Shown here in pieces: positions 6,234 through 56,165 of a stretch of DNA of 64,000 nucleotides; position 1 is the stretch's first letter; every line of letters begins with the position of its first letter. Made by a program: the position numbers and the translations under genes. The notes beneath the pieces were generated by a model. The model was not told where the DNA came from, made no database searches, and saw nothing but the letters and a program-made list of their open reading frames with translations. Origin of the DNA: Scenedesmus sp. ARA3 (Eukaryota > Chlorophyta > Chlorophyceae > Sphaeropleales > Scenedesmaceae); assembly GCA_004335835.1 (NCBI GenBank), contig RWJK01001752.1:1-64000 (forward strand). The letters are read 5' to 3'.

Positions 6234-9200
6234 ATGGCTCTGCTCAGCCAGACTCGCATGGGCCGTGTGTCCGGCACAAGGGCCAGCAGGACCACCTGCG
6301 TGCGCGTGCAGGGCGTTCAGGAGCGCAAGGCCGGCTCTGGTGAGGCTGGCATGGACAGGACAACTGCAGCTCCAGACCGTTCAGTTGGCGCCAGCAAGCA
6401 GCTCGGCATGTATGTTTGTATATCAACCGGCAATCAGCCGGTTTACATGTGGATTTGACATACAATTAGCAGAGGCGCAGCAGCGAACAGTGTAAACAGG
6501 CTTCAGTGCAAGCAGGCACTGATCCCCCTGCAGTGACCAGTTGACTTGCTTGCGCATTGAAAAACACGACACTTCAAAAATTGATCATGATTTTTAGGGG
6601 CTTCGAGCTCTCAGTGCACCAGAACTTGCCAGAGTGTTTGAGCGCAGCACCCAACACGAAGGTACAGCCATGCCCTCGCTTTCAACTCGCCGCCCTGCTG
6701 TGTTCACCTGTTGAACTACTTGCAGCTGGTCGCGCCCTGCTGAGCGGTCTGGCTGGCTCCGCCCTGCTGGCGCAGCCCGCCCTGGCCCAGGAGTCAGACG
6801 CAGTTGACTCTGCAGTGGCCAACCTGACCGAGGCAGTCAAGGTGGGCTGCAGCTGCATGGCGTGATATTGACCAGGCCGCAGGCCAGGATCACCAGCAGC
6901 TGTCGTAAGCGCTATTGTGCAAGCGCCTATATCTTGCCAGGGCAGCAGGCGCTGCACGCAGACAGCGGGTGACTGGACACATGCCAGACCGTGCTGCAGC
7001 AGCAACGTGCATATGCATCAGGTGTATGTTTCCCATTCAAAACCATACTCCCATCTACTGCGACGCAGTGACCTTTATCAGCGGTCACAGTCTGGCAATG
7101 TGCCTTCGCTGTTATGTTTCCTGCAGGCTGCTGGCCAGGGCGTGAAGGCAGCCATCGACCTGGTGGGTGCTGGCGTGAAGATTGCCCAGGAGGGTTACGA
7201 GGTGGCAGCGCCTGTCATCAAGCAGGGCGTGGATGTGGCTGCCCCTTTTGTGAGCGAGGCTGTCAAGGTCACCACCGAGACTGCCGCACCGCTGCTGTCC
7301 AGGGCAACCCCAGTGGTCAAGGTGAGCAGTGAGCCGGCTGCTGCTGCTGCTGTGCTTCAGGAAGCTGGCAGAAGACAGGCAACATGGGGCGGCAACGAGC
7401 AAGGGTAGCGGGCATGCAGTAGCAGCGGAATTGGCCGCCAAACAGCTGGCTACTGCAGCAGTGCAAGGATATGACATTGTGATTACAGACATCCTGAGTT
7501 TGCTACACCACCAGCAGATGCACCCGTGCCCAAGGGCGTCCCATCCACTGCAATTACTGAGCCGCCAACTGCACAGCAGTTTCCTGTCTTGTTACTGATG
7601 CGCTGCGTGCCATGCTAGGCCTCCACTGCAATTTATAACCACCCATACTCATCTTTATCGTCACCATTTCTGCTTGCAGGACTCGCTGCAGTCTGCCATC
7701 AACTCTGTTGGCGTGGATGTGGACAGCATCTCCCGCACCACCAACGTGGTGACCAAGACCGCCACTGAGGGCGCCACCGCAGCGCAGCCCTTCATCAGCA
7801 AGGCGCTCACCTTCCTCACCACCACCGAGCCGGTGAGTGACAGCATCGTTGCAGCAGCAATAGCAGCAGCACAGGTTTGTGCCGGCGCAGCAGGCTAAGA
7901 AAGCATGCATGTGTGCCGTCCAGGTCGGAGGTGCAGACTCGGCACAAAGAAGCACCACTCAGCATCGTCAGCAGCAGCAGAACTGCAGACCCCTCTTTGT
8001 TCGCATCCTGCGTGGTTTCACGCGTCTGTTCCTGTGTGCCTGCCTCTGCGCAGTTGTTATCCACACCTGTCTCCTCATGCATCTGTGTTGTCCCTGTGTT
8101 CCTGCCTCATCCCCGGTTCATCCCCTGCAGGTGCTGCTGGCCGAGTACGGCCTGGGTGCCGTGGCGCTGTACTACCTGGCCCCGTACCTGGTGGGCGGGC
8201 TGTTCGGCAGCCTGCGCGGCTTTGCCGGCGAGGTGACCGCTGCGCAGGCGCTGGACCTGGTGGGCAGCGACGGCAGCGCCGTGCTCATCGACATCAGGAC
8301 TGAGGTGCGCGGTGGATTCTGAATTGAGTTTATGGTGGTTTGTATGTTATGCTGCTGGCGGTGGTGACATGGGATGGATGGGTTAGTGTTTTGGCGAAGT
8401 CAGCTAAAGTTGGTGTGGCATCATATCTGGCAGTGTGCACATTGCCGATGCACTTCAGCCGGCTTACCAAAATCTGCTGGACATGTGTCTGTGGTCGCGC
8501 CTTCGGTTCAATACTGACGTGGCTGCTGTCTACCTGCCCATCTCGTGCTGCTGCAGCGCGAGAAGGAGGCTGCGGGCCTGGCTGATGTGCCTGGTGGCGC
8601 CAAGGGCAAGCTGCTGGAGGTGGAGTACGCCTTCACAGAGGACAAGAAGCTGCGCGGCCAGCTGCGCGACGCCAACGCCATCGAGGCACAGGTGCGGCGC
8701 AGTGCAGTGCTGCGATGCTGCAATGTCGTTTTTGATGGCAATTGTGATGAGGCGCATGCTTTAGACTTGGTGCTGGCACATTATGCACAGCCTGGCGCGT
8801 CCATCGCCAGTGGGTGCACCGCCCATCTCTTGATGCAGCATGTAGAATGGCGCGTTATCTTCCGCCATGGCTGCTGCCATTGTGGTGCAAGCTTATGTGT
8901 ACCCTGCTGCTGCTGCTGTCCCTTTGCGCTGCTGCAGATCACCGCGCTGCAGATCGCGTCGCTGAAGAAGATCGGGCGCGGCAGCAAGATCGTGCTGCTG
9001 GACCGCTACGGCAGCGCCTCCAAGGCAGTGGCCAAGGAGCTGGCCCGCAGGGGCTTCGGGCGCGTGTTCGTGGTGGCAGGTGCGCTTTGTACACTGCGGC
9101 TGCTTTCAGCAAGCTTTGGACCTTGCGCCATAGCCTGTCTTCCTGCGCTGCATGCTGCCAGCAACAGCGCTAGCATCCTGCGATAGCCCAACTTGACCTG

Positions 9201-9591
9201 TCCAGGGGGCTTCGGGCGCGTGTTCGTGGTGGCAGGTGCGCTGCTGTGTTTCTGTTTCTGTTTACCAAGCTTCAAGTTGTTTGCTGTACATCTCTTCTGC
9301 ACCCAGCTGCATGCATTGGATGCATTTGTTTGCATTTGTCCGGCCTGCTCAAAGATCATGCTTCTCACTGTGCTGCTGCGTTTTTGCTGCTGTGACTTCA
9401 TTTGGTGTGCGGCTGCAGGCGGCTTTGACGGCCGCGGCGGCTGGGTGCAGAGCAAGCTGCTGGTGAAGCCCACCGCCAGCATGTTCAGCGGCGTGTCCAG
9501 CAGCCCCCTGCCAGCCAGCCTGGCCCGCACCCTGAGCACACGCACGGAGAGCACCCGCGGCCGCAGGGCGCTGCCTGCCCCCAGCAAGTAA
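6234..9591 (+). CDS. CAS: Chloroplast calcium-sensing receptor CAS
   Basis: Eight exons, 6234-6339, 6726-6841, 7127-7321, 7680-7832, 8131-8304, 8557-8691, 8938-9079 and 9419-9591, join in phase to 397 residues, the normal CAS length. Order: an Arg/Ser/Thr-rich transit peptide; an AGRALLSGLAGSALLAQPALA segment (split in this entry as AGRALLSGL then AGSALLAQPALA) resembling a thylakoid-targeting peptide; the lumenal repeat-like region (AVKAAGQGVKAAIDLVGAG onwards); a hydrophobic span GAVALYYLAPYLVGGLFG; and a stromal rhodanese-like domain (VLIDIRTE to ELARRGFGRVFVVAGGF). In plants and Chlamydomonas CAS is a thylakoid protein needed for calcium-dependent photoacclimation and, in algae, for the carbon-concentrating mechanism. 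The rhodanese site lacks an evident catalytic Cys, as is usual for CAS. The tail is Ser/Thr/Arg-rich, where plant CAS is phosphorylated. The last intron contains a second copy of the end of exon 7. Confidence 0.93.
9205..9242 (+). repeat. Intronic copy of CAS exon-7 end and donor
   Basis: About 36 bases in intron 7 repeat positions 9049-9086, covering the codons for GFGRVFVVAG plus the donor GTGCGCT. The copies are about 156 bases apart. Both donors look usable, but splicing to the second would add intron sequence to the message. Confidence 0.9.
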
Positions 9592-10939
9592 ACGCTTGGA
9601 GGTTGATCCTCTGCTCCTCTTGCATATACAGCTATTGCTGTGGCGGGGTGAGGTGCCGGCATGTTGATCTCGCCGCAGTGGTTGGATTGCTGTTGTGGTC
9701 CAGCAGGGCGAGCGGCGTGATGGACGGATGTGTAAGAGGATGCGGCACAAGGGTGTGGTGGTTGTGGCGCAGCTGTGTTTGGCTACAGCAGCCTCCATTG
9801 CAGGCTGTGTGTTAGCCCGGCAGCTGTGGCGGTCTGCCTCTGCGTACAGCAGCTGCTGCAGCATGCAGCTGATGGCGTGGTTTGGCCGACGTGTGCCTGC
9901 GGTGTGTGAGGTGAAGTGTGCTTATTCACGTAGAGTGCCGCACCATGTGTGTGAGTGGCATGGGTGCGCACCCGTGACATACAACATACATTGTTTGAAG
10001 GGTTCCTCAGCACCAGCTGCTGCCATGTGTATGGGCAGTGCGGTGTGAGGCCCTAGAGAGAGTGAATGATGCAGAGGCGACAACTCGGCCTAATGCGTGT
10101 GCTGCCATGCTTGCCAATGACAACAGGTTGGCGGAGCATGCAGGCGCATGGCATATTTGAGCTATTGGTCAGCCGTGTTTGCAGTGTGTAGTCAGCGTAT
10201 GTGGGTTACTTGTGGAGCGATATTGATACTGGTAGGTGGCATGAGGATCTTGAGAGGGCCATGCATACAATCAGCCTTTGAGAAGAGGCCTGCAGTGTTC
10301 ACAGCCCGTGCTGCAGTTAGTGCACAGCAAGTGTATTTCACGATGGATGTGTCCTGTGTATATCTTTGTGTTGGACGTGTAACTGAGTCAGCTGTCAAGT
10401 CCAAACTCGAGCAGCCTCTGCTGATTATGCACTGGCTACTGTACGCTACGACCTTCCTGATGTTGCATTGATGCTGTCGCAATATGCAATGTCTTTCCTG
10501 CAACTCATAATACTACGACCTTGCTTATGTTGAAGCGCAGATACAAACGAACTGAGAGCTGGGAGTGCTCCCTCATGGTGGTGGTCCAAGGTGAATGGCG
10601 TGCCCCTTCCATACAGCATCTGTTCTGCTCAACAGCACTGCTGCAGCAACCAACGCAGAAGCCATTGCTGCATGAGGGCCTCTGATGTTCGCTCACATCA
10701 CCAGTAGACCACATTCAAATGGCGATAGGCATATGCAGTGCAGGATGCCGCGTAAGCTGCAGTATGCACGTGAACTGTAGCGAAAAGGCAGTGCACTACC
10801 TCCACGTGGTCCAAAGTATCCGAGGTGCGACTAGAAGTCGGCGCGGCAAATGCGCTCAAGACATCATCATTAGCAAATAATCACATCTACGCACTTCTTT
10901 AAATGACTTAGGCTCACAGTTCGTGCCTAGTCGAGGACT
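9592..10939. other. CAS 3' flank and intergenic region
   Basis: About 1.35 kb, same-strand spacer between CAS and the small heat-shock protein. It should hold the CAS 3'UTR at the left and the heat-shock promoter at the right. No exon chain or RNA gene is visible. Confidence 0.4.
9731..9735 (+). terminator. Likely TGTAA polyadenylation signal of CAS
   Basis: TGTAA 140 bases past the CAS stop codon, a typical 3'UTR distance for a green alga. Confidence 0.45.
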
Positions 10940-10952
10940 TTCCGGAACCTTC
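10940..10952 (+). promoter_or_regulatory. Heat-shock element
   Basis: The sequence TTCcgGAAccTTC is three perfect alternating nGAAn/nTTCn units, the binding site of trimeric heat-shock factor. It lies about 40 bases upstream of a TATA box and 165 bases upstream of the HSP20 start codon, the expected place for heat induction. Confidence 0.85.
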
Positions 10953-10980
10953 TAGGCGTGACATCGCAGCGTGCTCAGCG

Positions 10981-10989
10981 AATATATAT
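10981..10989 (+). promoter_or_regulatory. TATA box of the HSP20 gene
   Basis: AATATATAT lies about 135 bases before the start codon and just downstream of the heat-shock element. It implies a transcript start near 11010-11020 and a 5'UTR of about 100 bases. Confidence 0.75.
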
Positions 10990-11116
10990 CTCGCTGCTGG
11001 CTCGGACCGGACCAGTTGTTTTTCAAAGGTGCAGAAAGCTATCAAGCAATCCCACAGCGTTTTCAACTGCCGCTCTGCTGTCGCGAGCTCGTACTACGAA
11101 ACCTTCGGCAGACACA

Positions 11117-11390
11117 ATGTTGACCACCTGCGCAGTGCGTGCCGCTCCCGTGTTTGTGAGGCGTGCGTCTCGCATGCATTTGAAGGCTATGGCTCCTCGT
11201 GTGCCGCTGCAGATCCGTGCCTTCCAGGAGGAAGCCAAGCATGAGCAGCACGATGAGAAGCACGATGAGAAGCAGGTGCAGAAGCACCAGCCAGGCCAGG
11301 GCTCCTCGATGATGCGTGCTGACCCATACAGCAGGTGAGCGGGAGCAAACGACGCGAAGAGTGGTTCGGCTGCACCTTTAACGACAGCAG

Positions 11391-11443
<53 letters not shown>

Positions 11444-12666
11444 TGATGCCTGCTGCTGGCAGTTCATGCTGGCACTGCATGCATTGCAGCCCCAAGACTA
11501 CTCAAGAGCCATCTAGAGGCAATCACACGAGCAACCAGTCCACTGATACCTCATGCACAGCAGACCATGCAGCTTCCCATGTCACCATGCACTGCTGCAG
11601 CATCCCCCAATCACCAGCAACTACTGCTCACCACCTTAGGTGCCGCCATTCCTACCTCACCCCTGCTCTGCTGCTGCCTGCTCGCCCTCATTAACCCCAA
11701 CTCCCACCCCCACAGGTTTGGCCGCCTGCCCAGCATCTTCAGCGAGATGCAGCGCGAGATGGACGCCCTCACCCGCAGCTTCGGCCTGTTCGACGATTCC
11801 GACTTTCTGATGGCCCCTTTCCGCAGCAGCCCCCTGCTGGCTGACATGCAGCGCCACTTTGACATGCCGGCAATGGAGGCGAAGATGCCGCTGCTGCGGC
11901 TGGCCACTGACATTGAGGAGGATGAGGGGGCTTTCACCATCAAGGCTGACATCCCTGGCATGTGAGTGCAAAAGCAGCAGGCAGCAATGCTTGGCATGGC
12001 AAAGGCAACTACAGAAAAATCCTTGTTTAGTGCTGCATGCTGGTCTGGAAAGTCCCAGAACACTACAGGCATGCAGCAATGTGCAGCCGTCCATGTAGCA
12101 ACAAGTGCTAGAAGCGCAAGCTCTGCATGGCAGGCTGCATGTACCCGTGCCCAGTGTAAATGGTGTCGACATTCCAGAAGCTTCTGGCAGCTCTGCCAGC
12201 TCAAGCGTGATGCTGCTGCTCTGGCGCTTGTTTGACAGCTGTCTTTGTGCTGCAATGGCCATCCGGCCGCCCAGCATAGGACACAAACAGCAATTTCACC
12301 TTGCTGTTTACGGACATGCTCTCACCACGTCCTTGCTGCTGCTGCTGCTCTCCTCCCAAACCCCGCACTCTCAACCTTTCAAACCTCTCATCCCACAGGA
12401 GCAAGGAGGACGTCAAGATCAAGGTGCTTGACGGCACCCTCACCATCAGCGGCGAGCGCAAGGAAGAAAAGAAGGAAGGCGAAACTGCTGAGGGCAAGGC
12501 CGCGCGCATCGAGCGCAGCTACGGCTCCTTTGTGCGCAGCTTCAGCCTGCCGGCCAATGTGGATGCTGCCGGCATCAAGGCCACTGCCAAGGACGGCGTG
12601 CTGACTGTGGTGGTGCCCAAGGTGGAGGTGCAGGAGCCACAGGCGCAGGAGATTGCCATCGAGTAG
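11117..12666 (+). CDS. Organelle-targeted small heat-shock protein (HSP20)
   Basis: Three exons, 11117-11334, 11716-11961 and 12399-12666, join in phase to 243 residues. The first 40 or so residues are Arg/Ala/Val-rich without acids (MLTTCAVRAAPVFVRRASRM), a chloroplast or mitochondrial targeting signal. A charged Lys/His/Gln linker follows, then FGRLPSIFSEMQREMDAL, close to the N-terminal motif of plastid HSP20s. The alpha-crystallin domain runs from about residue 125 (LATDIEEDEGAFTIKADIPGM, split here as LATDIEEDEGAF and TIKADIPGM) to DGVLTVVVPKVE, with the GVLTV signature. It is an ATP-independent chaperone that holds unfolding proteins under heat. The start at 11117 is chosen because the in-frame ATG at 10958 lies upstream of the TATA box. 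Intron 1 carries a (CAG)17 tract. Confidence 0.94.
11392..11442 (+). repeat. (CAG)17 tract in HSP20 intron 1
   Basis: Seventeen uninterrupted CAG units shortly after the exon-1 donor. It lies in an intron and is not translated in the spliced model. Confidence 0.95.
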
Positions 12667-14972
12667 GCTGGGTTCAGGCTGGCCTGCGCGAGTTGAATTG
12701 CAGCGCTGTTGTGTTGGACTGGTGGACTCCGACAGCACTGGCACCTGTACCTGTGTGGATTTTGAGTGCAACTGTGGAGCTGAGCTGTTTGTTAAGAACA
12801 ACAGCATGCTCGTCCAGCAACCCGATATGGCGGGGTTGCGTGCGTGCTAGTGGTGGTGGTGGCCACCATGGTGTTGGACTGGTGTGTCTATGACGTGGCA
12901 GAAATTTGGTGTTGACGTTAGACAGTTGCCCAGCTTGTACTCGGCATTCATAGAAGATTGCATGTGTGGCTGTGCGGTGGCAGCGCAGTGCTGTCAGTTG
13001 TTGATGCATTCATGCTGGCAATGCTGGCAATGCCAGTGCTTGTGACCTGGGACTCTGCATTTGGGTGGTGTGACATCACTTGTTGTCGGGCCGCGCAGTG
13101 CTTGGGTGTGCTTAGGCAGAGACGCAGAGGCTGCTCTGTGGCTGTGCATTCTAGGCCACCTGTGTAGACTTGGCAACTGCTGACAGCAGCAATGCAGAAG
13201 GAGTTACAGACTGGAGCTAGTGAGCATGCAAGTACCAATGACTGAATGGCGATGATGTTGTTACAATGCGAGAGCGAGATGGCAGTCCGTTCAACAGCCT
13301 GGTGATGTGTTGGTGGTTTGTTGACATTGAAGCGCCACATTTTGCCTGACTGCTGACCCAAGTAGCGGTCAACTGGAGTTGGTGCTGTGCACATACATGT
13401 GTTTGATTTGGGTGCTGGGATGACAACACATGTGCTCTTCATGTCATGTGCAGCTCAGAGAGGCCATTTGTAGTGCTACAGTTGGGCTATAGGTTTGCAC
13501 AGTATGCACTACAGGTTATGCTTGCCGCAGAACTGTGCGGTATGTTGCATACAGCAACACATCACACACAGAGTTGCATCCAGCGGGACAGTACTATGCA
13601 CTAGAGCCATGATGTTGAGCGCAGCCGCATGTCTTGCAGGCAAGCTTGAGGCTGCTGCATGGCATGTGTTTGCGGCTTGCATATGAACGCATGTCGTCAT
13701 GTCTTAGCATGCTGTTTATGTCGAAAACAAAGGCTGCAGAAGGCTGCGGGACATTTTTTGCTGACAGTGCTGTTCCTCACTGTGTTAGACTGTCTATAAC
13801 GCATGGCACTATTGTGCAAGTTTTGACTTAGGTTTGTACAGCTTGCTGCTTGCTGGTGAGGTTGGCTGATGAGGTGTGCTAGGATGGTTTGTGCGGCATG
13901 TGATGGGTGAGCCACAAGTACATGCCATTGCATGGCAGCAGTCATCTTGCAGCTGTGCTGTGTGGGCTCCCTCTGCATATGTCGTGCTGCAGCATACAAC
14001 ACCCTCTGCTGTGATGCAGTAAAAGCGTGCTTGCCATATCTGCGTTCCCGCATGCAGAAAGTCGTGGTATGTTTTGCAACAGCACTTACATCATTATGTA
14101 TTTGCATGCGCAGGCCATGCAGATTGATGCATTGGGCGATTCTGTATAGTTCCCCATGTTTTTCTGATAGCAGCTGTTGCTGTTGTGCTTGCCATGTGCC
14201 GTATTATTGCCATTGCAGTGTGCATGAGCGCATTGGTGCAAATTCTGTTTTCATGTCTGGGATGTCGATTGCTATTCAGACAGCTGCAAAGCATGTGAGA
14301 TGGAATAGTATTGACTGCTGAATCTGGATATGTAAGTGGTTTTCTGATGTAGCGTAAGGTAGACGCTGAGACAATTGTAACCTGAGGCACACCACAGAGG
14401 TCTTCTGTTCATCCTCTGAATCCTTGAAGGCAAAGTTGCAGGCATGCTGCGCAACATGCTTGCCGCAAAAAAATCACAGGAGCTGTCTAAATTTCAATAT
14501 TTATAAACTGATTATTGTCTGCACCGCTGTAACGGCCGCGGCTATGAGCTTTTGGCACGATAGCAAGCTGGATTTGAATGTGCGGTACCCGGTACTGGCA
14601 GTTTCTTTTTGTGTCTGCCGAGCTACGAAGACATGTACTGGCACTGCTGCCCTGGTCCTGCGTTCTGATAATACAATGACTAACTAGATTCAACCATTGA
14701 AACCTGCAAAGGCACATAGCACTAAATGGATCCCCACTCGGGCTTGTGTTAAACACAATGTGATTTGTCACCAGTGACGAGGGTTCTATCGAGGGGTCTG
14801 GCGAGTACTGGTGCCTCGTCCATATCAATGTCGCTTTTGTTTGCTTTAAAAGTTTTGAAGGCTGCTTGCCTGCAGCGGCAGCGCACACCTGAACAAAATG
14901 GACCATTTCACGCAGCACAGATAGTGCGCACGGTTATACAGCAGCGCCAGCTGCTGTCAGCGAGCTGAAGAG
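12667..14972. other. Intergenic region between HSP20 and helicase genes
   Basis: About 2.3 kb. The left part is HSP20 3' flank, the right part the promoter and 5'UTR of the giant gene. Composition falls toward AT around 14.48-14.55 kb. No exon chain, tRNA or TATA box is recognised. Confidence 0.4.
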
Positions 14973-44079
<29,107 letters not shown>

Positions 44080-46115
44080 TCAGACTCTTATTGGTGGCTG
44101 TCGGCTACTGGTGTCCTGTCCTGTGAGGTACGAACATCACATTGGGTTGACGCAGGGGTCACTCAGTGCAGTGGATGCAAGCTGACGAATGTTGTTGGAC
44201 ATTTGGCGTGAGTCGGTACTGCTACACAGGTTGATTGTCGCCATGGTGTACAGATTCAAAAGGACCCCATGCCGTGATCTTTGATGGCTTGCAATCGTGA
44301 CCTGATAAGGTCACCACAGCTGGCATGTAACAAGCAAAGGTGCTGCTGTGCAATCAACAATCACTATTTGACGGTCAAGGCTGGTTGCAGGCAGGGCTGC
44401 CACAAATGTGACATCTGCTAAGCACTATTCGTGGCAAATTAGGGAGTCGGTGACTCCGTATCCCGAACGATAGTCTCCTTGCTTATGTGCGAGGCGCATG
44501 GCTTGACATGGCTACAGTCGTCTGGGGTGGCAGATGAAGCCCTCCGGCCACCACCCAACCCTCCCACCATCTTCGAAGCGCACTATTTCTTTTGCTCACA
44601 TCTACATTTGCTGTTTCTGACTTCCTAGATTAAAAAACCAGCGCGCAACCTCTGGCAAAGTCAAAACCCAAGCACACAAACACCAGAGGCCATTGAACGT
44701 GTCGACAAAGCAGAACCAGGGGTCGTGATTATTGCACTTGTTTTGGAACAACAATGTGAGAGATTCAAGGCAGATTTGCTGGCCTGCTTCGACGTATCCA
44801 GCGACTGTTACTGCCCTTCTACACTCTGCAATGCCAGCGCCTCGCGCAACAGCAATTCCGCTATAATAACCGTGTTTTTGTCTTCATGGATTTGCGCATA
44901 CGAAATTTGTCTCAGGCTTAGACATGCGAGCGCAATTGTCGATGACACGTCAGCTGTAACAAAAAAAGTAACCCTGCCGGAAGGCCACAGTCTCCGTCCT
45001 CATTCTCATTCGTCCGGGTAAACGAGCGCTGATAACTTGAGCTACAACTGTTCCTGCAGTCTCCTCACCGCTGTGCGTCACATCAACACTGACAACAGTT
45101 GCTGACAACGTACTGTCACTGTCGCCCAAAGAACCCTAGGCAGCAGTGACACTGCTTTTGATGGACAAAACCTCGTAGAAGCAGCTCGACACGGATATGA
45201 TTGTAATGTATGTTGTGGTCGTCGACGATCTATGCTCCAGGAGCCTTTGGGACTAAGGCAAAGTTGTCGGCGACTACTTGTTCACTGAGCAGGTGAGAGT
45301 GCACTGCCATCCCGAGCAATAAAGTGTTCATCACGAAAATCAACTTTGATCGGCGGTGTGTGCTTGATCGAGGGCGCTACGACCGGAAGTGCGTGGAAGC
45401 CTGCCTGCACAGCGACAGCACTGCCTGCAGGCGGCATGCGGCATTTGTCAGGGTGTATATAGCACTCAACAATCACCGATAACGACTTTTGACACCAAGA
45501 ACGTGCTGATCAACTCACCCCGCGATTGTTCACAGCGTGAAGTAAGCAGCGCAGCCAACTCAGCACGCCTCCTTAGCCGCGATCACTTAAGTTGACACCA
45601 ATGTGTGTTCTTCCTGCGGTGCTGCGGTGATGCAATGCAGTGCAGCTCAGCTGGCGATTGGTGAGTCAGCTGCTGCTCTGCTGCTGGGGCAGGCTGATTG
45701 GACGTTTGAGTGATGTGCTGCGCAGCACCATCAGGGCAGAATGCCAAGGATAAAAATGCAGCTGTGCCAGTTCAAAAGCACCTGCCGATGACTGTGATTC
45801 TGCTTGTATGGTGATTGGCAAACATAGCACAGCAGAGGTATTGCTGGACTGCAGTGGTGCTCAGTGAGGCGTGGCAGGTCACTCAACCAATGCAGCAGTA
45901 GTGCGCAGGTCGCCACTTTAGGTGTTGCACACCTTGCGGCTGAGTGAGATCTGGTTAGCTAGCAACAGTAAGCGAATGGAGCAGAGCTGTGGTGCAGCGC
46001 TGCTCGTCAACGCAGCATGCTGCACATCAGCCACGCCGTCACATGCCACCCTGCTGCTGTACCGCCTCTTTGCAGAGGCCACCTCCCAAACCACGTAACG
46101 CTGACCAAACAAGAT
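44080..46115. other. Intergenic region between helicase and propeller genes
   Basis: About 2 kb: 3'UTR of the giant gene at the left, promoter and 5'UTR of the propeller gene at the right. No exon chain or RNA gene is recognised. A TATATA at about 45455 is the nearest TATA-like sequence upstream of the propeller gene. Confidence 0.4.
44326..44330 (+). terminator. Likely TGTAA polyadenylation signal of helicase gene
   Basis: TGTAA about 250 bases past the stop codon at 44079. Confidence 0.4.
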
Positions 46116-47180
46116 ATGCTGCTGGGCTGCAAGGCACCACGCCCCTGCCGCAAGCTGCGGCTCTGTGCGCTGCTGCTGCTTCTGCTGTCAGAGCTGGCGC
46201 TGCAGCATGCTGCTGCTAGGCAGGAGGAAGAGGGGGAGGGTGAAAAGTGAGCTGTTGCACTGGCAGCACAGTGCATAGGTGAAGGCACCACGCAGTAGGT
46301 TTGTGTGCAGCTGCACTGCTTGCAGCTTGCCTGGCTGAAATTGCCATAGCAGAGGCCGTGTGCTGCTCTCCTGTCAGCCGTGCCTGCTGCCTGGCACTGC
46401 ATGCTTGACACGTGCCATGCCCAATGCTGCTGCTGCTGCTGCTAAACGCCCTGCCACCACACTACATGCCGTCCCCTGCTGCCACATGCACAGGCCCAAA
46501 CCTGAGGTTAATGGCTCCTACATGACAGACAGCTACAAGAAGAACATCCTTGAGTATGCAGCCAGCTTGGGCAGCAACAGGGCTGAGCGCAGGCGGGCTG
46601 CAGCACCTGGGCAGGCCTTTGAGCCTGGGTGGCTGCAGATTGGCCCGGATGCGGCGCGCTGGCAGGCGCAGGGTAACACGCACCAAAACGCAGGCAGGGT
46701 GAAGAAGATTCTGCAGGTGTGTGTTCGCCTCATTGTGTCATTGTGCATGTTGATGAGCAGCTCCTGAGCACTGCATCTGTACAACTGGCTGCATGTGCAG
46801 CAGCAATGCGGCTGGGTGGTGCTACTGCTTGTTGGACATGGTCTGCAGCAGCAGCAACGGCAGTGCTGCACTGTATGCTGTCTTGCTGCAGATTTTCCAC
46901 ATGCTTCAAAAGCACGGGCAGTGAGGTAGCAGGCAGCCACAGGGTCGGACCACAGGCCGTTGCGCAGCAGCCAGCAGCAGCCTTGACAAATGCAGCCGGC
47001 TGTTTACACACAGATCTTGCAGATTGGCCCTTGCATGAGCATGTGTGCACATGTGAGCTGACAGCTGCAGCAACTGGTTGCGTGTGTTGCCCTCTTACTG
47101 CCACACAGAAGGAGCAAGGACATGCCTAAAGGCATCCCGACATGCATGCTGCACAGGGTGGCCCTCACACAGTTTGTTGC

Positions 47181-47221
<41 letters not shown>

Positions 47222-49377
47222 AGGATCCCAACAACCTGAACAGGGTAAGCATTGACTTGGACGGCAGTAGAACTGGTATCACCCCGCTACATGCATCGAG
47301 TGGTAACCGCACTGGCAGACTTGCACACTTGGCGGCTGTTTGCATCGTTCTGACGGTATGCCTTGGTTAGAAAGCGAGCCTGTCACGTCTCAGGCTTGCA
47401 GTTGGCATTATTGTAGACCCGGGCCACATTAAGCCCTTTGGTAAAGCACATCATTATTGCGTCACATGTTGCCTCGAGTGTCACCAGCTGTCACTTACAC
47501 AAACCCCAGATGCCTCCACAGGCACTCACCCACGCCAACCCCATGCCTGCCACCTGTACCACTGCAGGTGTATGTGGCATTTTCTGCGGGCGGCGTGTGG
47601 CGCAGCGACAACTTCTTCTCTCAGGCGCCCACCTGGCGCGCCCTCACTGACAGCGCATTCGTGTCTGTGCCCACCACCTCGGTTGGCGCCATGGCTCTGG
47701 GCGCTGCTGACTCAAAGATGATCTACCTTGGTCTGGGTGAGGCTGCTTGCCATAGTTGGCTTATAAACCTGCATCTCTGAAGTTGCACTAGGACTAGTAC
47801 TGCTGATGTGTGGTGTTACGCGCTGAGTGGCATGCTATGGGCTTTCAAATCATGATTGGTTGGCGCCATGGCCCTGGGCGCTGCCGATTCAAAGATGATC
47901 TACCTGGGCCTGGGTGAGGCTGCATGATGTGCTTGGCTTTTGAACCTGCATCTCCAAAGCCGTTCGTACTGCTGATGTGTGGCGTTACACGTTGAGTGGC
48001 GTGCTATGGGCTTTCGAATCATCAATGGTTGGCGCCATGGCCCTGGGCGCTGCTGACTCAAAGATGATCTACTTAGGCTTTGGTGAGGCTGCCTGACACA
48101 GTTCCTTTTTGTTTGTAACAGATTGTAAGTTTTAGCGTTGCTTGCTGCTGTGTGTGCTGTTGCATGTTGAGTAGCGCGTTTCATGCTCTTAAACCATCAA
48201 TGGACTGCACCCCATGGCCCTGCCCAACCTGGGCGCTGCTGACTTAAATATGATCTACCTGGGCCTGAGTGAGGCTGCATGCCACGTTTTGTTGCAGCAG
48301 ATTGTAAGCGCCTCGCCTGCTGCTTGTGTGTGCTGTTGCATGTTGACCAGCGCACTTCAGGAGCTTGTGTCGTCAGAGCCCGGCGCCATGGCCGTGGCAG
48401 CTGCTAATCGGAACATGATGTACTTGGACCTGGGTGAAGCCGGGCACAGGAGCGTGCAGTAGGGCACATGTTGTGTGTTGTCACCAGCTTGAGATCACAC
48501 ACTCTTGTTGTACTGCAGCGACACCAGCCAGCTGTGCGCTGCCATGCACTGTGCATTTGCCGCTGCAGGTGACTTTTATGATGTGCGGCCCACACTGGGA
48601 GGCGTGGTGTGCACCTCCCTAGACGCCACCGCCACTCAGGGCGTTGTGTTCACTGCAGATGAGTGCAAGGCGCTGCCTGGGCAGACGGCAATCAGGTGCG
48701 CGCTTGCATGCAAGCGAAACAGTATCTGTGCAATAGTGAGAGGATATTTACATGTGGGTCCTGGCACCATCTGTTTTGAATCTGTGCGATAAATTATGCA
48801 CCCGCTTTCAGCAATCGGCCGGAAGGTTCCACTAAAGGTTGAACTAATGGTGCACCTTCACTGGTTACAGATTTGTCCCTCTGCCCAGGGACATAACTGT
48901 TTCGAAGGGTGCTGGCGTCAACAGGCAGGACCAGGCCAGTGTGGCAGCCATCTCCTGCTGCCTCTTCATGACAAGTCGACCCTAAACTGCCTTCTTGTCC
49001 AATGTGCAGGGACATCAAGGTGGCGCCGGGTGCTGGGCTCAACAGGCAGGACCAGGTCATTGTGGCGGCCAGTGCAGGCAGCTGGCAGGATGGTGACGAG
49101 GCGCAGGGGGGGATGTGGGTTAGCCGTGATGCAGGACAGACGTACCAGGCGGTGAGCACTCTGGTGCACCTACACAGTTCTTCATGCTGTGCATGTTCAA
49201 CAGCAGGATGGGAGTGGCAGAGTGCAAGTGCAAGGCCTACAGCAGCGCTTTGCTTCATGACGTATTGCTGATGCCGCATTGCATAACAAATCACAACAGC
49301 GGAGATAACGTTGCCTCCACTGCTGCACGCAACATGCTGCACCTGCTGCTGCACCGCTGCCTCCAACGCTTGCCGCC

Positions 49378-49409
<32 letters not shown>

Positions 49410-52400
49410 GGCCACCGTCATCACCACTGCTGCATCCAACAACAGGCAAAGCTCGGCGCCAACTGCTGGAGCATCGCACAGACCATCATAGCTGGCAGCG
49501 TTGGCTGGCTGGCGGCGTGCACAATCGATGGACGATCTGAGATCTGGCGCAGCAGCAACCAAGGGCTCACATTCACACGCATTGCTGCAACCCCCTTTGG
49601 CCCAGATGCTGGCAGGGCTACACTGGCAGTGCTCAGTCCAGGCAGCAACATTGTGTATGCTTTGGTGGCGAAGAAAGGCGACAGCGGACTCTACCTTGAC
49701 ATTTTCAGGTGAGCTGTCAATTACTGATGCTGCAGCATTTGGGAGTTGTGTTGTTCAGCAATAACCTCACATGCGCTGCCGGGTGGCCTGTCTGTTGTCT
49801 ATCAAATGCAGCACTAGTAACGTCAATTCAACCTCACTTGCATGCTACACTGTGTGAACCTGTTGTGCTGCTGTGCCTGCTGCTGCTGCAGGTCCAACGG
49901 GGGTGGTGCGCCTAACACCTGGACTGCGCTCAAATTCCTGAGCAAGCGAGTCATCAACCCACCTCCACGGAATGAGTGGAATAATTGGACCGCCACCACA
50001 GTCGGGGGAACCTTCTGGGGCAATGGTGACCCCATTGCACAGGTAGGACACGGCAGCGGCAGCAGCAGCAGCAGCGGCGCTGTGGCGCTGAGAGCATGGC
50101 GGAGCGGAAACAGGTTTGCTGGCTATGCAAGAGAGTAGTTGCACATTGTATGTGGCCCAGTGCTATGTATGGAGGGACGAGGCGAAGCAACTCTGCAGGT
50201 TGCAGACTATGTGTATCAGCTATAAGCTGCTGGCTACTAGACGGGCAGCGTTTCGGCTGCCAATTGCTGCTGCATGCGGACTGCATTACGTGCAATTTGG
50301 CTTTGTGTGGAGAGATGGGAGGCCTACATCGTATGATGCACACGTTTATGACCTCAAGCTAGTCGACACACGCATGTCCTTTGCTGCTGCAGGCGTCATT
50401 CAACCAGATGTTGTTGGTGGACCCTGCTGATAGGTGAGCGGGGGCTGCGTACTTCTGCCAAGTTATGCATGACACCCAGTTATGCGCAGCTGCTGTACAT
50501 GTGCGCCACAAGGCCTTTATAGTGTGCCAGCTGCATGTTGCGTCAGCACAGCACAATTTACTCGATGCAGTGCAACCACTTTATGTGTGCTCCTGCGCCT
50601 GCAAAATTGACAACACATTTTACTTCATGTGTGCTACTGCGGTTGCAGAACTGGCAACACATTCTTTTTTGGCGCCAATCTCATGAGCGCCAAGACAACA
50701 GATGGTGGCAGGACCTTCAGTGTAGTCAGCTACTGGCTTGACACCTTGGGTGGGTGGGCAGCCGAGTAGATTTGTGAATCACATTTTGAGTTTTGTATTG
50801 TCATAATCTTAAAGCATATGGTTGGGACGGTTGGCAGCTGCCGCAATACTGAAGGGAACAGTCTTAGCTTTTGCAGCAGCGGTTACAGCTCGCCGACCTA
50901 CTGCTGCTGCTTCTGCTGGGTCAGCCTGTGCCTCTTCCTCTACAATCTACTGCTGCTTCTGCCCGCATTCAACTGCTGCAGAGCAATACCGCATCCCCTA
51001 CAACCACGCTGACCACCACACCGCAGCATACATTCTCCTGCCTTTCACTGCTGCTGCTGTGTCCATTCGCATCCACTTGCTGCAGAGCAATACGGCATCC
51101 CCTACAACCACGCCGACCACCACACAGCTGCATACCTGCTGAAGCCTCCCGCTGCGCTGCAAGCTCCAGGCAGCAGGCCAGCCAGCATGCAGGACATTGG
51201 CTTGCCAGCCACTGGCTCAGGATATGGAGGAGGATTCAGCGGCATACATCAGGACGCAGATGCTGCTGCTGCTGCTGCTGTTGCGGCAGCTGAGACAGAG
51301 GGTGTAGCACAGGCGGCAGCTAATGTGCAAGCTGCTGATGGTAATGTGGAGGCGGCTGATGCTGCCCAGGTGCAGCAGGCTGGCGCCAGGGTGGTTGTCT
51401 TTGGCACTGATGGCGGCATCTTTGTCAGGTGAGGGGTAGTTGGAAAGTATGATGGAATGAGACTGACTGACTGCTGGACAACACCAGGCCTGTCCATGTC
51501 CTGTCGTTACTCATGCAATGCCAGGTTTGTGTGCAGCAGCGATATGGCTGAGCAGGCGCCGTGTTACGCAAAAACACAGCTGTGTCAAAAACATGTGCCG
51601 TATGACATTCTTGTGTGCGTAATCCATGGGTGAATGCTGCAGCGATGACGGCCGTGGAGGCGCCATGGATAAGGGCGAAAAGAATATCGGCATATCCACC
51701 ATGCTGGTGGACCTGATTGCAGCAACGCCGCTGTTTCCTGACCTAGTGGCAGTTGGCTTACAGGTGCGGCTTGCCACCTCAAAATGCAAACCCCCAAAAC
51801 ACATAGCCCACAAAGCCCACAAAGCCGCACCGCATTCAGCCAGCTGCAGCTTGACCTGGTTGCAGCGGGGCCAGTGCTGCCTACAGGCAGGGGTTGCTGT
51901 GGTGGCTTGTGTGGCTGCTGCTGCTGCTGCTGCAGCAGCAAAAGCGCTGTTGCAAGAACAGAGCAACGCAACACACTGACCGCATCTCTTCTCTCATTGC
52001 TGTACACATGTGTTTGTTGCTGCAGGACAATGCTGTCCGGTCACGCGTCGGGAAGACTTCAGACTGGAATGCGGTGAGGCAGATTATAGTGCAATTTGTA
52101 TGCTGCTGCTGCTGCTACTGCTGCTCGGCACCAGCCTAGCAGCCTGCACAGAGCATGCTGCAATGCTGCTGCGCTACTGTTGCTGCTGCTGTGGTGCCAG
52201 CAGGGCCCAGATTGAAGAAGGGTGACAGATTCTCTTGCAACTCTTCTTGCTGCACATGTTGCAGGTGTCCAATGGTGATGGCACAGGCATTGCAATGAGT
52301 CAGGCTGGCAACCCGTTGCGCGGTGAGCTGCTGCCGGTGGATTTATGCTGCTGCTGCAACTTGTTGCTTATCAGTGCTGCTGCAGCTGCTGCAGCTTGCG

Positions 52401-55100
52401 TCATGTAGCTGCTGGGGCAGCTGCTGCAACCTGTTTGTTGAAGCTGCTGGGGCCAGCTGCAGATTTAGTTCAGCCGCCAACTCACTTACGTGTGTCTTCG
52501 CGTGTGTTTGCTTGCAGCGTGTGCTCTGGGCCAGACCAATTGGGCAGGTGGGTGTTGCTACCACAGCAGCTTTAGCGTGTCTGTGTGCATCTGTGTGCAG
52601 CTGATGTGCAGCTGTTGTGCAGCTGTTGTGCATCTGTGTGCCTCTGTACGCAGCCGTGCATGCAGCTGCATCTGGCTGCCCTGCAGCGCACCATGGAGAG
52701 GCCCAAGTTGGGTTTTAACACAGGATTGAACCCTGAACTGCAAAGCCCTCTTTGCCAGCTGCACCCATGGCGATGCCTTGTGCGGGAGGTAAGGAGAACA
52801 ACCATGCTTTGCCTCCAATCAACATGCTGCTCAGGCAGCAGAATCAGACAGTCGTTTGCCACAGTCATATTCACTTTTGTAGGTCTTAGGCTTCAGGTTC
52901 AGAAGTAACAAGTGACTGTACCGCTCCACCTGCTGCCCTTGATCTTTTGCCTCAGGCTGCCCCTGGCGCTACAACCTGTCTGTTCTGGCCAGCAACACAA
53001 ATGAGATCCTTGACACCCTCATTGAAAATAACGGTGCTGTGTGTGGCACTGGCACGCTGAGAATTATCCCTGAGGACAGCATTCCGAACAGGGCAGCTGG
53101 GTTTGTGGTACCACCTCCAGCACTGGACAGAACGGGCCAGGTAAGCAGCAAGTTACAAGTTGCACGTCCTGTTACTTTACGGATCAGAAGCAGGCGAGCC
53201 CGCTTTACCCTAAGCTCGTCCGGGTGTACTGTAAGGTGGTTGATGGGGACAACAATATGCCTGGTGTGGGCATTACTGGGCAGCAGCACAAACCAGCACA
53301 CCCGCTGCTGTAGGGAGTGCATGGCTGTACTGCATGTGTAGCTTCTGCCGGCCTGCACAACGTGCTTTTTGTGGTAAAGAGAGAGGGGTTGAGAGTGGTT
53401 GGTCGATCAGCGTTGCGCATTGCTGGGGCAGAACAAGTGGGAAGAGGTGTGGTGACTTCCCACCCTTGCTAGATTCAAGTACTCTGATGCCCCCTGATGC
53501 AGCGCACATAGCTTCCAGATCACTCCATGCTGCACCGGCCTGAAGCCTGTGCTTGTTTGTGCTTGCTCCTGTAGACTTTCTACATGAAGTTTGCGCGCAA
53601 CATCTTCAGAACAAAGGTGCGAAGTCCTGCTGCCGCCAGCCCAGCTTGTGTCCTAAGACAATACATGCGGATATGTAGAGGGCGTGGAGCCCAGGGGCGC
53701 CGCCCTACAAACACCCTCTCCAGCCTCAACTTACCTAGAAGCTGCACAGCGGCCTAAATAGCTACTCACTCATCTACTCAATCAATCTTTCACTACTGTC
53801 CTGCAAGGCGCCCCAAAGGGCCTATTATGCTGTCAAGTAGGCTAGGGAGCAGCTGTGTTGTGCTGCAACCAGCTGAGTTTCTCCGCAGGGTGTTATATGT
53901 TGGCAGCAGGAGCGGCTGCTGAGCGCTGTCACAGCAAAGTTATGTCACTGGCGCTCCTGCAAACTCACCTGAGTTGTGGTGGTTGCTGTATTACTGGCGA
54001 CAGCGTACGCCCGCTGCTGTGCAAATGCACGTCACAACGTATTTGTGCTTCTGCTGCTTGCTGCTGCTGCTGCTGCTGAACCGCGGCATCTGCATCTGCC
54101 TGCGGCTGCGCACTAATGCACGCCACAGCTTCCACACACTGATGGGGTGTGCCTGCTGCTGCAGAACTGCGGCAACGAGTGGAGCATTTGGGCTGGTGTG
54201 TTGCGGGGCACCGGCCTGCCTGCACCCGTAGTGCAAATCACAGGCGATGATGACCCCTGCTTGGATGCCGGCTGTGAGTGCGCATTCGGCAAACACATGC
54301 TTGGGGTTTACAGCTCCTATGACGTGTGCTTAGGGTTCAGGGTTTTTGGTTTTGAGGATTAGCGTGCCTATCACAAACCCTGCCTGGATGCCGGCTGTGA
54401 GTGCATGTGCACTGCTGCCTTTGCTATGCAGATGCTGAACGTTTGTTATGTTCATGACAAAATAATGGCGGCTTGGCGTGTGTCACTTTTGGAGGGTTAA
54501 GGCTCTTTTGACGACCCCTGCTTGGATGCCGGCTGTAAGTGAATGTGCACTGCTGCATGTGGCTAACAGATGCTTGGGGTTTACAGCTCGCGTGGCATGT
54601 GCAAGAGGTGTAGGTTTAGGAGCGTTTGAGGACGTGGTGTACTTGATGATGTTGCTGCTGCTGCTGCTTTGGCTTGTGGTGTGCAGGTGACAACACAGGC
54701 TCTGCACTGTGGGGCGGCTGGGGTGACTCAACAGGTGGGGCAGCCAGCCAGCTGTTACAAGCAGCCAGTCCTGTTACTTTTGCAAAGCGTCTGCTTTGAG
54801 CAAGCCTGCTGCAGCCTGTGCCCCCTGCTGCGCGTGAAGTGTACATGAAGTAGAAAGAGATGAGCACGAGCCTGGTGCGGGCTTGTGAGTACTATCGTCG
54901 TGATTCATGCCTATCCTTCTACCAGCCAGATGTCCCTGGCTTTGTCAGCCCAGGTGCTGCCATGCACTGGCCTGCAACTTGTCAACAACCACAGATTTGC
55001 TGTCAAAGGAATGGAATGTTGACCCCCCTTGAGGCACACTTGCATGCTGTAGAATTGTTATGCACAATCCACTGCTGCGCGGGCTCTGCTCAACTGTCGC

Positions 55101-55134
<34 letters not shown>

Positions 55135-55937
55135 GCAGGCAGCATCACGCTGGGCCTGCACCCCCGCAACATCCTCAGGGCCGCCTCGCTGCTCTTTGTG
55201 AGCCACACGAAAGATGACCCGGCCACTCCCGCCATTGCCATCACTGCGAATGATGGAGCCAGCTGGATCACGCAGAGCTTCAATGTGAGGCGGTGCAGCA
55301 GCAACAGCAGCAGCAGCGCAGCTAGCTACAGTAACAGAGTGTACAGCGATTACGACAGCATCTTGAACAGGCATGGACAACAAACAATGCCTTGACAGCA
55401 TCAGCTGCAGCGACCAGACCGGCAGATCCCACTTACCATTGTGGTCTGCGCACGCCACTGCTGCTGCTGCTACCGCTGCTGCTGCTGCTGCTGCTGCTGC
55501 AGGTCCCAAACTGGTTCCCCCGTTCCACCACCTCCCCTACCTTCTCATCAGATGGCAGGCGCCTCTTTGTAGCATACACATCCCCAGGGACAGGCGCACC
55601 GGCTCGCATCCTGGCCAACAACAACCCTTTTGCAGCCGGCGCAGCTGGCGCAGTGTGGCGGCCGCTGCCTGCTGCTGGCCTGCCGCGAGATGTGCCTGTG
55701 CTGCGCATTCTTGCGCACCCGACCATTGCCAGGACGCTGTTTGTGGCTAACTGGCTGGGTGTGTATGTTACATTTGATGGTGGGCTGACCTTTTCAAGGG
55801 CGGGTGATGATACAGATGAGCCACTGCCGCTGGTGCAGGTTTCAGATCTGGCGATCATTCCGCGCGCAGCAGGGGGCTTTGTGTTGCGTGCTGGCACCCG
55901 CGGCAGGTCCGTGTTTGAGTATGACAAGGTGCTGTGA
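46116..55937 (+). CDS. Secreted BNR/Asp-box beta-propeller protein
   Basis: Twenty-one exons join in phase to 977 residues: 46116-46246, 46494-46716, 47224-47244, 47568-47736, 48569-48695, 49010-49151, 49446-49708, 49892-50042, 50393-50433, 50649-50749, 51086-51428, 51643-51763, 52026-52073, 52265-52322, 52518-52547, 52956-53140, 53575-53616, 54165-54273, 54687-54734, 55139-55284, 55503-55937. A signal peptide (Arg/Lys then LCALLLLLLSEL, cleavage after AAA) is followed by propeller blades with Asp-box motifs: VSRDAGQTYQ, RSSNQGLTF, KTTDGGRTF, ITANDGASW and VTFDGGLTF. DPNNLNRVYVAFSAGGVWRS and YLGLGDFYDV match the blade pattern of GH74, sialidase and sortilin-like propellers. It is probably extracellular or in the secretory pathway and binds or cuts glycans. 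I cannot assign catalytic residues, so enzymatic activity is open. Exon 3 is a 21-base microexon (DPNNLNR). The short exons 13-15 and 17 are the least certain. Confidence 0.85.
47182..47220 (+). repeat. (CTG)13 tract forming an acceptor
   Basis: Thirteen CTG units run directly into CAG, the acceptor of the 21-base microexon. The repeat itself takes the place of the polypyrimidine tract. Confidence 0.95.
47681..48445 (+). repeat. Five tandem ~175-bp units carrying an exon end
   Basis: Units start near 47681, 47858, 48027, 48205 and 48380. Each holds GGCGCCATGG, the codons for ADSKMIYLGLG or variants, and a GTGAG-type donor. Only the first is in the exon (ends 47736). Units 4 and 5 are most diverged. 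The period is 169-178 bases. This is not CRISPR: the repeated part is coding sequence with splice sites and the spacers are related to each other. Confidence 0.92.
48868..48953 (+). repeat. Degenerate copy of exon-6 acceptor (propeller gene)
   Basis: Resembles 48985-49070, containing CAGGGACATAA in place of CAGGGACATCA, then GGTGCTGGCGTCAACAGGCA and AGGACCAGG. The real exon 6 starts at 49010, about 120 bases later. Confidence 0.8.
50974..51137 (+). repeat. Duplicated exon-11 acceptor and start (propeller gene)
   Basis: TGCAGAGCAATAC followed by codons for IPYNHADHHTAAY occurs at 50974-51030 and again at 51081-51137. The second has the real acceptor (51085); the first is a near-identical decoy 106 bases upstream. 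Confidence 0.92.
54247..54610 (+). repeat. Three copies of exon-18 end (propeller gene)
   Basis: The codons DDPCLDAG plus donor recur at about 54247-54279 (real), 54373-54400 and 54507-54540. Copies 1 and 3 also share following sequence (ATGCTTGGGGTTTACAGCTC). Spacing is about 126-134 bases. Confidence 0.88.
55104..55133 (+). repeat. (CTG)10 tract before exon-20 acceptor
   Basis: Ten CTG units, then TGCAG at 55138, opening exon 20. A similar CTG run precedes exon 21 at 55479-55502. Confidence 0.9.
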
Positions 55938-56165
55938 GGCCTTGGAAATGTTTGAATGTTTGAGTTTGGCAACGTCCTGTCAGGTCTTTTTGAATCTGCC
56001 AAGACCCTGTGGGGCCTGCGATTGAGTAAGGCAGGGTCCTGTGAGGCCTTGAGAATGTTTGAATGTACACGAACGTCTAATATTGGCAAGGTGCTGTGAG
56101 GCCTGTGTGAATTTGGCACGGTTCCGGTGGGCCTGTGTTTGCGTAAGACAGGGTGCTGTGCGCCA
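55926..56165 (+). repeat. Tandem repeat of the stop-codon region
   Basis: The end of the propeller CDS and its stop (AAGGTGCTGTGAGGCCT) recurs in degenerate form near 56030-56050 and 56085-56105. The linked GAATGTTTGAATG and TTTGGCA(A/C) elements alternate between. It forms a 40-60-base irregular tandem array in the 3'UTR. Confidence 0.8.

Follow-up and report, generated by a model that had tools for sequence, protein, structure and literature searches.

How does an intron come to hold extra copies of the edge of its own neighbouring exon, splice site included? The question is raised by a stretch of 64,000 bases from Scenedesmus sp. ARA3 (bases 1 to 64,000 of contig RWJK01001752.1, here C1346; referred to as the window), in which a CAS-type (rhodanese/calcium-sensing receptor) gene, a TRANK1-like ankyrin/UvrD gene and a propeller gene carry such copies. 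In the CAS gene, the exon end with the donor at 9079 (9050–9086, forward strand) recurs in the intron at 9206–9242 on the same strand; the copy is identical over 37 bases, and the 119-base spacer has no homology to what follows. The pattern is real and not confined to the window: edge copies are present in 10 of 15 sequences, the window included, and at least one is found in 16 of 57 predicted genes. As a tentative explanation, we favour duplication across coding edges followed by recombination between exon and copy.

Exon-edge copies in the window

A blast search of the window against itself and a diagonal scan (score cut 16) revealed 19 edges with copies in the three genes, comprising 14 clear splice edges, four weaker ones and one stop-codon edge. 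This agrees with the preliminary description of the window, which had counted at least 18 places. The one to four copies per edge reported there were found as well (donor 47736 has four), as were offsets of mostly about 75 to 210 bases; their centre lies at about 120. Identity of the copies to the exon ranges from 73 to 100%, in line with the wide range of ages proposed. In the window cases read, the copy sits within a longer intron and not at the intron's far end.

The gene names given earlier are supported. The CAS product contains a rhodanese domain and its homologues are named calcium sensing receptor, ankyrin and UvrD-type domains are present in the TRANK1-like product, and the propeller protein is sortilin-like according to the name of its homologue, with no Pfam family at threshold. 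The predicted propeller protein is 98% identical to a Tetradesmus obliquus protein (955 of 978 aligned columns), without an exon-sized gap and with the same final residue; judged by this protein, the source organism is close to T. obliquus. No paralogue of the propeller gene was among the matches listed in the genome search, only short dispersed matches. The CAS model has 14 residues near 7874–8131 that a homologue does not have, so that one exon border there is wrong.

Homologous proteins also bear on which splice site is used. One CAS homologue (397 residues) comes from a contig no longer than 2055 bases, most likely a transcript; in it the two exons are joined and the copy is absent. In a more distant relative, the reading frame continues through this intron (about 120 bases by residue count) and there is no copy, and the T. 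obliquus propeller protein contains none either. Comparison with these homologues shows the outer splice site as the one in use in the CAS and propeller genes; in the other genes the same is presumed.

Frequency beyond the window and enrichment at edges

The material consisted of the window, 15 further stretches (four of them shortened by a contig end) and 50 kb more of contig C1250, in total about 238 kb handled as 15 sequences. This corresponds to about 0.3% of the genome assembly (87.3 Mb in 1567 contigs). One stretch of 475 bases (L005) was excluded from gene prediction, and 5,852 bases of L010 are N. Gene models were obtained with a purpose-written gene finder, trained on the sequence itself without annotation or RNA, which learned MAG/GTGAG as donor and CTGCAG/G as acceptor signal. 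Its initial output comprised 58 genes with 524 exons. Twenty-eight predicted exons were copies of the edge of a longer exon and were dropped by rule; the final set after removal of copy-exons contains 57 genes, 468 exons and 411 introns. Since this rule placed the window cases 18169, 22144 and 23292 in the class "other", the edge count is a low one.

Direct local repeats (raw count, score of at least 16, offsets 30 to 600) numbered 265, compared to three in a control made of distant offsets or comparisons between loci. With the same scoring, only eight inverted repeats were found, three of which belong to one structure. The repeats cluster into 197 pairs and 99 families: 18 donor, 20 acceptor, four stop and one start family, nine in which exon interior recurs in an intron, 16 within exons, 14 within introns, five intergenic and 12 not placed. 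The repeat unit thus crosses a splice-site edge of an exon in 38 of the 99 families (donor and acceptor), while random relocation of the 83 non-exonic families yielded a mean of 9.7. At offsets of at least 75, 37 edge families stand against four intron-only or intergenic ones, a ratio of 9.25 compared to 0.38 in the null (95% range 0.12–0.77). Edge families have a median offset of 123.5 (quartiles 104 and 145.5), intron-only and intergenic families one of 53. The preliminary description had called for a comparison with a null on a genome-wide scale; already in this sample, the frequency came out far above it.

Copies were found of 19 of 426 donor edges and 21 of 428 acceptor edges, so that exon ends and exon starts are both affected, as had been described. 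Four of 42 stops and one of 40 starts were copied; the rate for stop codons rests on one homologue-checked case (window 55937), and the "stop" family of L016 may reflect a gene truncated where the stretch ends.

Two further arrays were noted in the sample. A perfect tandem array with a 27-base unit lies over predicted short exons at L022:7955–8120 (position 57955 of the joined C1250 sequence). An intergenic tandem array with a 139-base unit (L011:1–400, 92–95% identity) is the sole intergenic family with an offset in the range of the exon edges.

Anatomy of the copies and state of their splice sites

The homology between edge and copy is lopsided. On the exon side it extends over 11 to 127 bases (median 38), on the intron side over a median of 6.5 bases, with 7 bases or fewer in 23 of 40 edges. 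For donors alone, the intron-side median is 7.0, with 11 of 19 at 7 bases or fewer. Positional identity drops at +6 to +9 past donors and at −4 to −10 ahead of acceptors. The homology stops where the constrained sequence of the gene stops (the exon with its splice motif or, in the window's stop case, the coding sequence), which points to similarity being maintained where the exon is under constraint. Exon and copy differ at 81/849, 74/840 and 147/848 of codon positions 1, 2 and 3, respectively (third position, p about 3e-9; 57 source edges, exon-interior and stop cases included). Free drift of the copy, together with mainly silent change in the exon, would give this pattern. Changes from G/C to A/T are slightly more common per site than the reverse (0.070 vs 0.051).

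Introns with copies are longer than the others of the same gene set (median 389, n = 37, vs 230, n = 291), as the proposed intron growth predicts. The GT or AG is retained in 31 of 40 copies, which bears out the earlier statement that many potential decoy sites are supplied, and in 14 of 40 the copied site equals or exceeds the real one in score. The splice dinucleotides are kept no better than the rest of the copy, and use of the copied site would cause a frameshift or a premature stop in 33 of 40 cases. The earlier emphasis on the splice site as the object of the process is not supported: besides the evidence of the dinucleotides, a stop-codon edge is copied alike, and so are exon-interior pieces (9 of 99 families).

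Tandem register and comparison with simulated duplications

If a copy arose by tandem duplication, the intron sequence beside exon and copy should be homologous in tandem register. A test for this, made in the same way as in the simulation described below and using shuffled local scores, covered 38 of 40 edges. Of these 38, 18 have a homologous intron part (14 of 34 at offsets up to 260), and the other 20 have no clear homology there. In a stricter cross-pair test against the spacers of other cases, covering 30 of 40 edges and leaving out those whose match fills the whole unit, 13 of 30 were above three standard deviations and 13 of 30 ranked first; the other 17 had a mean z of 0.42 (standard error 0.27). 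Gapped spacer identity was not used as a measure, shuffled spacers scoring about 0.77. Tandem duplication is thus the origin of at least the 18 cases. Identity of the exon part (the core) is 0.911 with or without a homologous spacer (15 vs 15, p 0.85); the apparent age of a core is therefore uninformative about its spacer. In their offsets, cases with and without a homologous spacer overlap.

The simulation placed random tandem duplications in the real gene models and let them decay neutrally and acquire indels, while exons and splice motifs were kept under constraint; indel and rate values were assumed, over a range. Simulated intergenic counts are inflated, since they include genes of the opposite strand, and intron-only counts were compared instead. 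The simulated ratio of edge to intron-only cases was 1.0 to 2.0, compared to 37 to 3 observed at offsets of at least 75 (37 to 6 if three unplaced pairs lying in introns are added). Homologous intron parts were found in 87–100% of simulated cases, in contrast to 18 of 38. The intron-side homology of simulated donors had a median of 16–44 bases against 7.0 observed, and 7–22% of them had 7 bases or fewer, against 11 of 19. Only the exon-side length fits (simulated median 27 to 44, observed 38). Many copies are more similar to the exon than they should be had they simply decayed since their duplication. Of the local tandem duplication proposed earlier, the local and nearly direct-only character of the repeats stands (265 direct vs 8 inverted), while plain duplication with decay fails three of the simulation comparisons. 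Likewise, the statement that the copies are tandem holds for the 18 of 38 edges homologous in tandem register, but copies are often not full tandem repeats.

Explanations for the copies

The explanation tentatively favoured here is duplication across coding edges, with recombination keeping the exon-derived part similar to the exon. In this view, short direct duplications, mostly at offsets of about 75 to 210 bases and centred on about 120, would repeatedly straddle the border between coding and non-coding sequence. The outermost splice site or stop codon would stay in use, and the extra copy would land in the intron or downstream region, free of coding constraint, where it would lengthen the intron. 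The intron-derived part of the unit would then diverge, whereas the exon-derived part would often stay recognisable much longer. To explain this we infer recombination, by gene conversion or unequal exchange, of exon with copy and of copies with one another; the exon would be the constrained anchor and the splice sites in the copies passengers. Directly observed are the occurrence of the copies across the sample, their near direct-only orientation, their enrichment at edges, their spacing, the longer introns and the decoupling of core and spacer. Recombination would explain this decoupling, the fact that full and partial cases share one range of offsets, and arrays like that of L006 (4544–4870), in which intronic copies 2 and 3 are 94% alike and the spacers are at the shuffled level. 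The array of L016 (7666–8170) can be read as a mosaic that points to exchange: its spacers pair copies 1 and 3 (94%), while two linked core variants pair copies 1 with 4 and 2 with 3.

Several observations weigh against this explanation. The clustering of mismatches within cores is modest (109 close pairs vs 86.7, sd 6.7), and that of other repeats leans the same way (94 vs 83.6; 90 vs 82.0). Copies 2, 3 and 4 of the propeller gene share a silent GGC for GGT that the exon does not have, so they have not recently been overwritten by the exon. The enrichment of 38 families over 9.7 was obtained with a relocation null that is somewhat generous to edges, each observed family being represented by its most edge-like pair. 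In addition, intron-only repeats are rarer than even the edge cases that are still homologous would predict. Homogenisation alone does not predict this scarcity; the duplications may themselves be biased to edges, or cores may truly be copied alone. A bolder form of the recombination reading, which we consider doubtful, takes exons as standing templates that re-imprint their own edges onto the neighbouring intron about 120 bases away. Intron sequence would be renewed from exons by a process that sees the border of coding and non-coding sequence, splice site or stop alike, and introns would grow without transposons.

Alternatively, only the exon edge with its splice motif might be inserted into the intron, at a distance of about 100 bases, through a process linked to transcription, splicing or repair at exon edges; the spacer would then be old intron. 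Copying of the core alone would account for the 20 of 38 intron parts without clear homology beside cores up to 100% identical (37 of 37 bases in CAS), for homology that stops within 7 bases of the junction (23 of 40 edges, and 11 of 19 donors against 7–22% in the simulation) and for an edge to non-edge ratio about 24 times the relocation value at offsets of at least 75. It sits badly with the 18 of 38 intron parts that are homologous in tandem register, with the overlapping offsets of the two kinds of case and with the copying of a stop-codon edge and of exon-interior pieces. Patch repair would, moreover, not predict direct-only orientation, which is nearly what was found. We regard this origin as rather unlikely; given the tandem-register matches, missing spacer homology is no proof of it. 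At the other extreme, and close to the view of the preliminary description, random tandem duplication with neutral decay would need no further process, the duplications being seen at edges because the exon half is constrained. Full tandem units of different ages (34165, 38444, 47736), the codon-position pattern, which fits a neutral copy, and the exon-side lengths are in line with it. The shortage of intron-only cases (37 to 3, or 37 to 6, vs 1.0 to 2.0), of homologous intron parts (18 of 38 vs 87–100%) and of intron-side homology (medians of 7.0 for donors and 6.5 for all edges vs 16–44 for simulated donors) is not. In its simple form this explanation is rejected, unless spacers turn over in a way that spares exon-like sequence, and we hold it to be improbable overall.

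Retention of the GT or AG in 31 of 40 copies, and scores no lower than that of the real site in 14 of 40, could suggest that selection preserves the copies as alternative or regulatory splice sites. Against this, the dinucleotides show no more conservation than the remainder of the copy, 33 of 40 copies would shift the frame or stop translation prematurely, and the transcript-like CAS homologue skips the copy; on the evidence of dinucleotides and reading frames, such selection has little probability. Collapsed or repeated segments in the assembly might be suspected behind the few identical copies (e.g. CAS 9206–9242), but exon and copy are in most cases not identical, neither of the two spacers searched has a match in 87 Mb other than itself, and the pattern recurs in 10 of 15 sequences, which makes an artefact very improbable.

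Relation to known systems

Repeated exon sequence within one gene is known from tandem exon duplication with mutually exclusive exons. The copies described here comprise only part of an exon, either its end together with the donor or its start together with the acceptor. Mutually exclusive or alternative exons of this kind would carry both acceptor and donor and be included in the mRNA; the donor-type copies read have no copied acceptor, and the CAS homologue omits the copy. A mobile-element or introner origin of the spacers was set aside: the spacers of CAS (119 bases) and L016 (95 bases), the two that were searched, each matched only itself in the 87-Mb genome, an absence of matches that is no proof of rarity.

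A close parallel is the potato RdRp gene, where, according to the relevant part of PMC4974935 (which cites Gao and Lynch 2009), a tandem duplication over an intron-exon border put a piece of exon into an intron. In both systems a duplicated segment with an intron end and the start of the next exon leaves part of an exon within an intron, homology in tandem register being seen at 18 of 38 edges here. There, however, one event made a new intron, whereas dozens of copies lie inside existing introns here, donor, acceptor and stop edges are all involved, and homology is undetectable in about half of the spacers. In the Rogers model (Hellsten 2011, as described in passages of PMC3443670 and PMC4974935), introns are gained when an AGGT segment is duplicated in tandem. 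Extra splice sites are supplied by local tandem duplication there as well, but in the cases read here the copied edge lies within a longer intron and does not form the end of a new one. Introners likewise add intron sequence on a wide scale and are also reported in green algae (part of PMC9860276); in the present case each copy derives from its own exon, and the two spacers searched are single-copy, with no dispersed family. In Daphnia, intron gain at staggered breaks leaves short flanking direct repeats around unrelated sequence (as summarised in PMC3443670). The repeats in the present case are similar in this respect but are mostly 25–90 bases long, tied to coding edges and sometimes arranged in regularly spaced arrays.

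The main text of PMC12571836, which in the parts consulted compares genomes of Sphaeropleales including T. obliquus, has no word beginning with intron, exon or tandem, and the relevant passages of the Coccomyxa genome paper (PMC3446292) report no such copies. No description of exon-edge copies in algal introns was found in titles and abstract openings, a coverage that mostly excludes subscription journals. The copies form a dense natural record of introns lengthening, with no mobile element found so far and with events of different ages in one genome. Several sequenced T. obliquus strains exist (as stated in part of PMC12571836), so the birth, loss and homogenisation of copies can be timed directly. 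They also provide a natural test of how the spliceosome chooses the right site with a near-perfect duplicate about 120 bases away.

Individual edges in the ankyrin/UvrD and propeller genes

All edges and copies given with ranges below lie on the forward strand. In the ankyrin/UvrD gene, the exon end with donor 18219 (18185–18222) is followed by a partial copy at 18323–18353 and another copy at 18484–18521, and that with donor 23318 (23292–23324) by a copy at 23430–23462; both fell into the class "other". Further donor edges are 22434 (22411–22436, copy 22528–22553), 33631 (33584–33636, copy 33705–33757) and 34165 (34142–34170, copy 34219–34247), the last with a spacer homologous in tandem register. 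Acceptor edges are copied upstream. The acceptor at 30379 with its exon start (30377–30418) has copies at 30183–30224 and 30273–30319, the one at 38444 (38435–38473) has a copy at 38304–38342 as part of a full tandem unit of 131, and the one at 41278 (41269–41298) has a copy at 41173–41202 with a spacer that is not homologous. The four weaker edges belong to this gene as well: an exon piece that stops 6 bases before donor 25388 (25347–25382, copy 25461–25496), and the edges at 22151, 23802 (score 15, under the cut of 16) and 31208 (73% identical). Within the span of the gene, an inverted pair (39819–39853 with 39941–39975) overlaps and flanks a perfect 23-base direct repeat (39862, 39925), forming a compact palindromic structure at 39819–39975 that was classed as intronic.

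In the propeller gene, the exon end with donor 47736 (47681–47757) has its four intronic copies near 47858, 48027, 48229 and 48382, and that with donor 54273 (54248–54281) has copies at 54378–54404 and 54509–54541. Copies of exon starts with their acceptors are found at 48886–48950 (acceptor 49009, source 49007–49071) and 50964–51031 (acceptor 51085, source 51068–51135), while the copy of the region of acceptor 50648 (50578–50619, source 50622–50663) has lost the AG. The edge at 55937 is a stop codon (55935–55937) and not a splice site; the T. obliquus homologue ends at the same residue. This coding end (55911–55959) has downstream copies near 55957, 56022, 56084 and 56135.

The propeller gene region also contains, at 53627–53795, a dispersed repeat of about 130 bases that matches at least 39 other places in the genome (74–81% identity) and for which no Rfam family at the gathering threshold and no tRNA were found. 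At 47175–47226, about 45 bases beside a CTG tract match several other contigs at 88–100%. CAG/CTG triplet tracts are abundant in exons and introns of the window, e.g. at 15781–15961 and 43102–43248.

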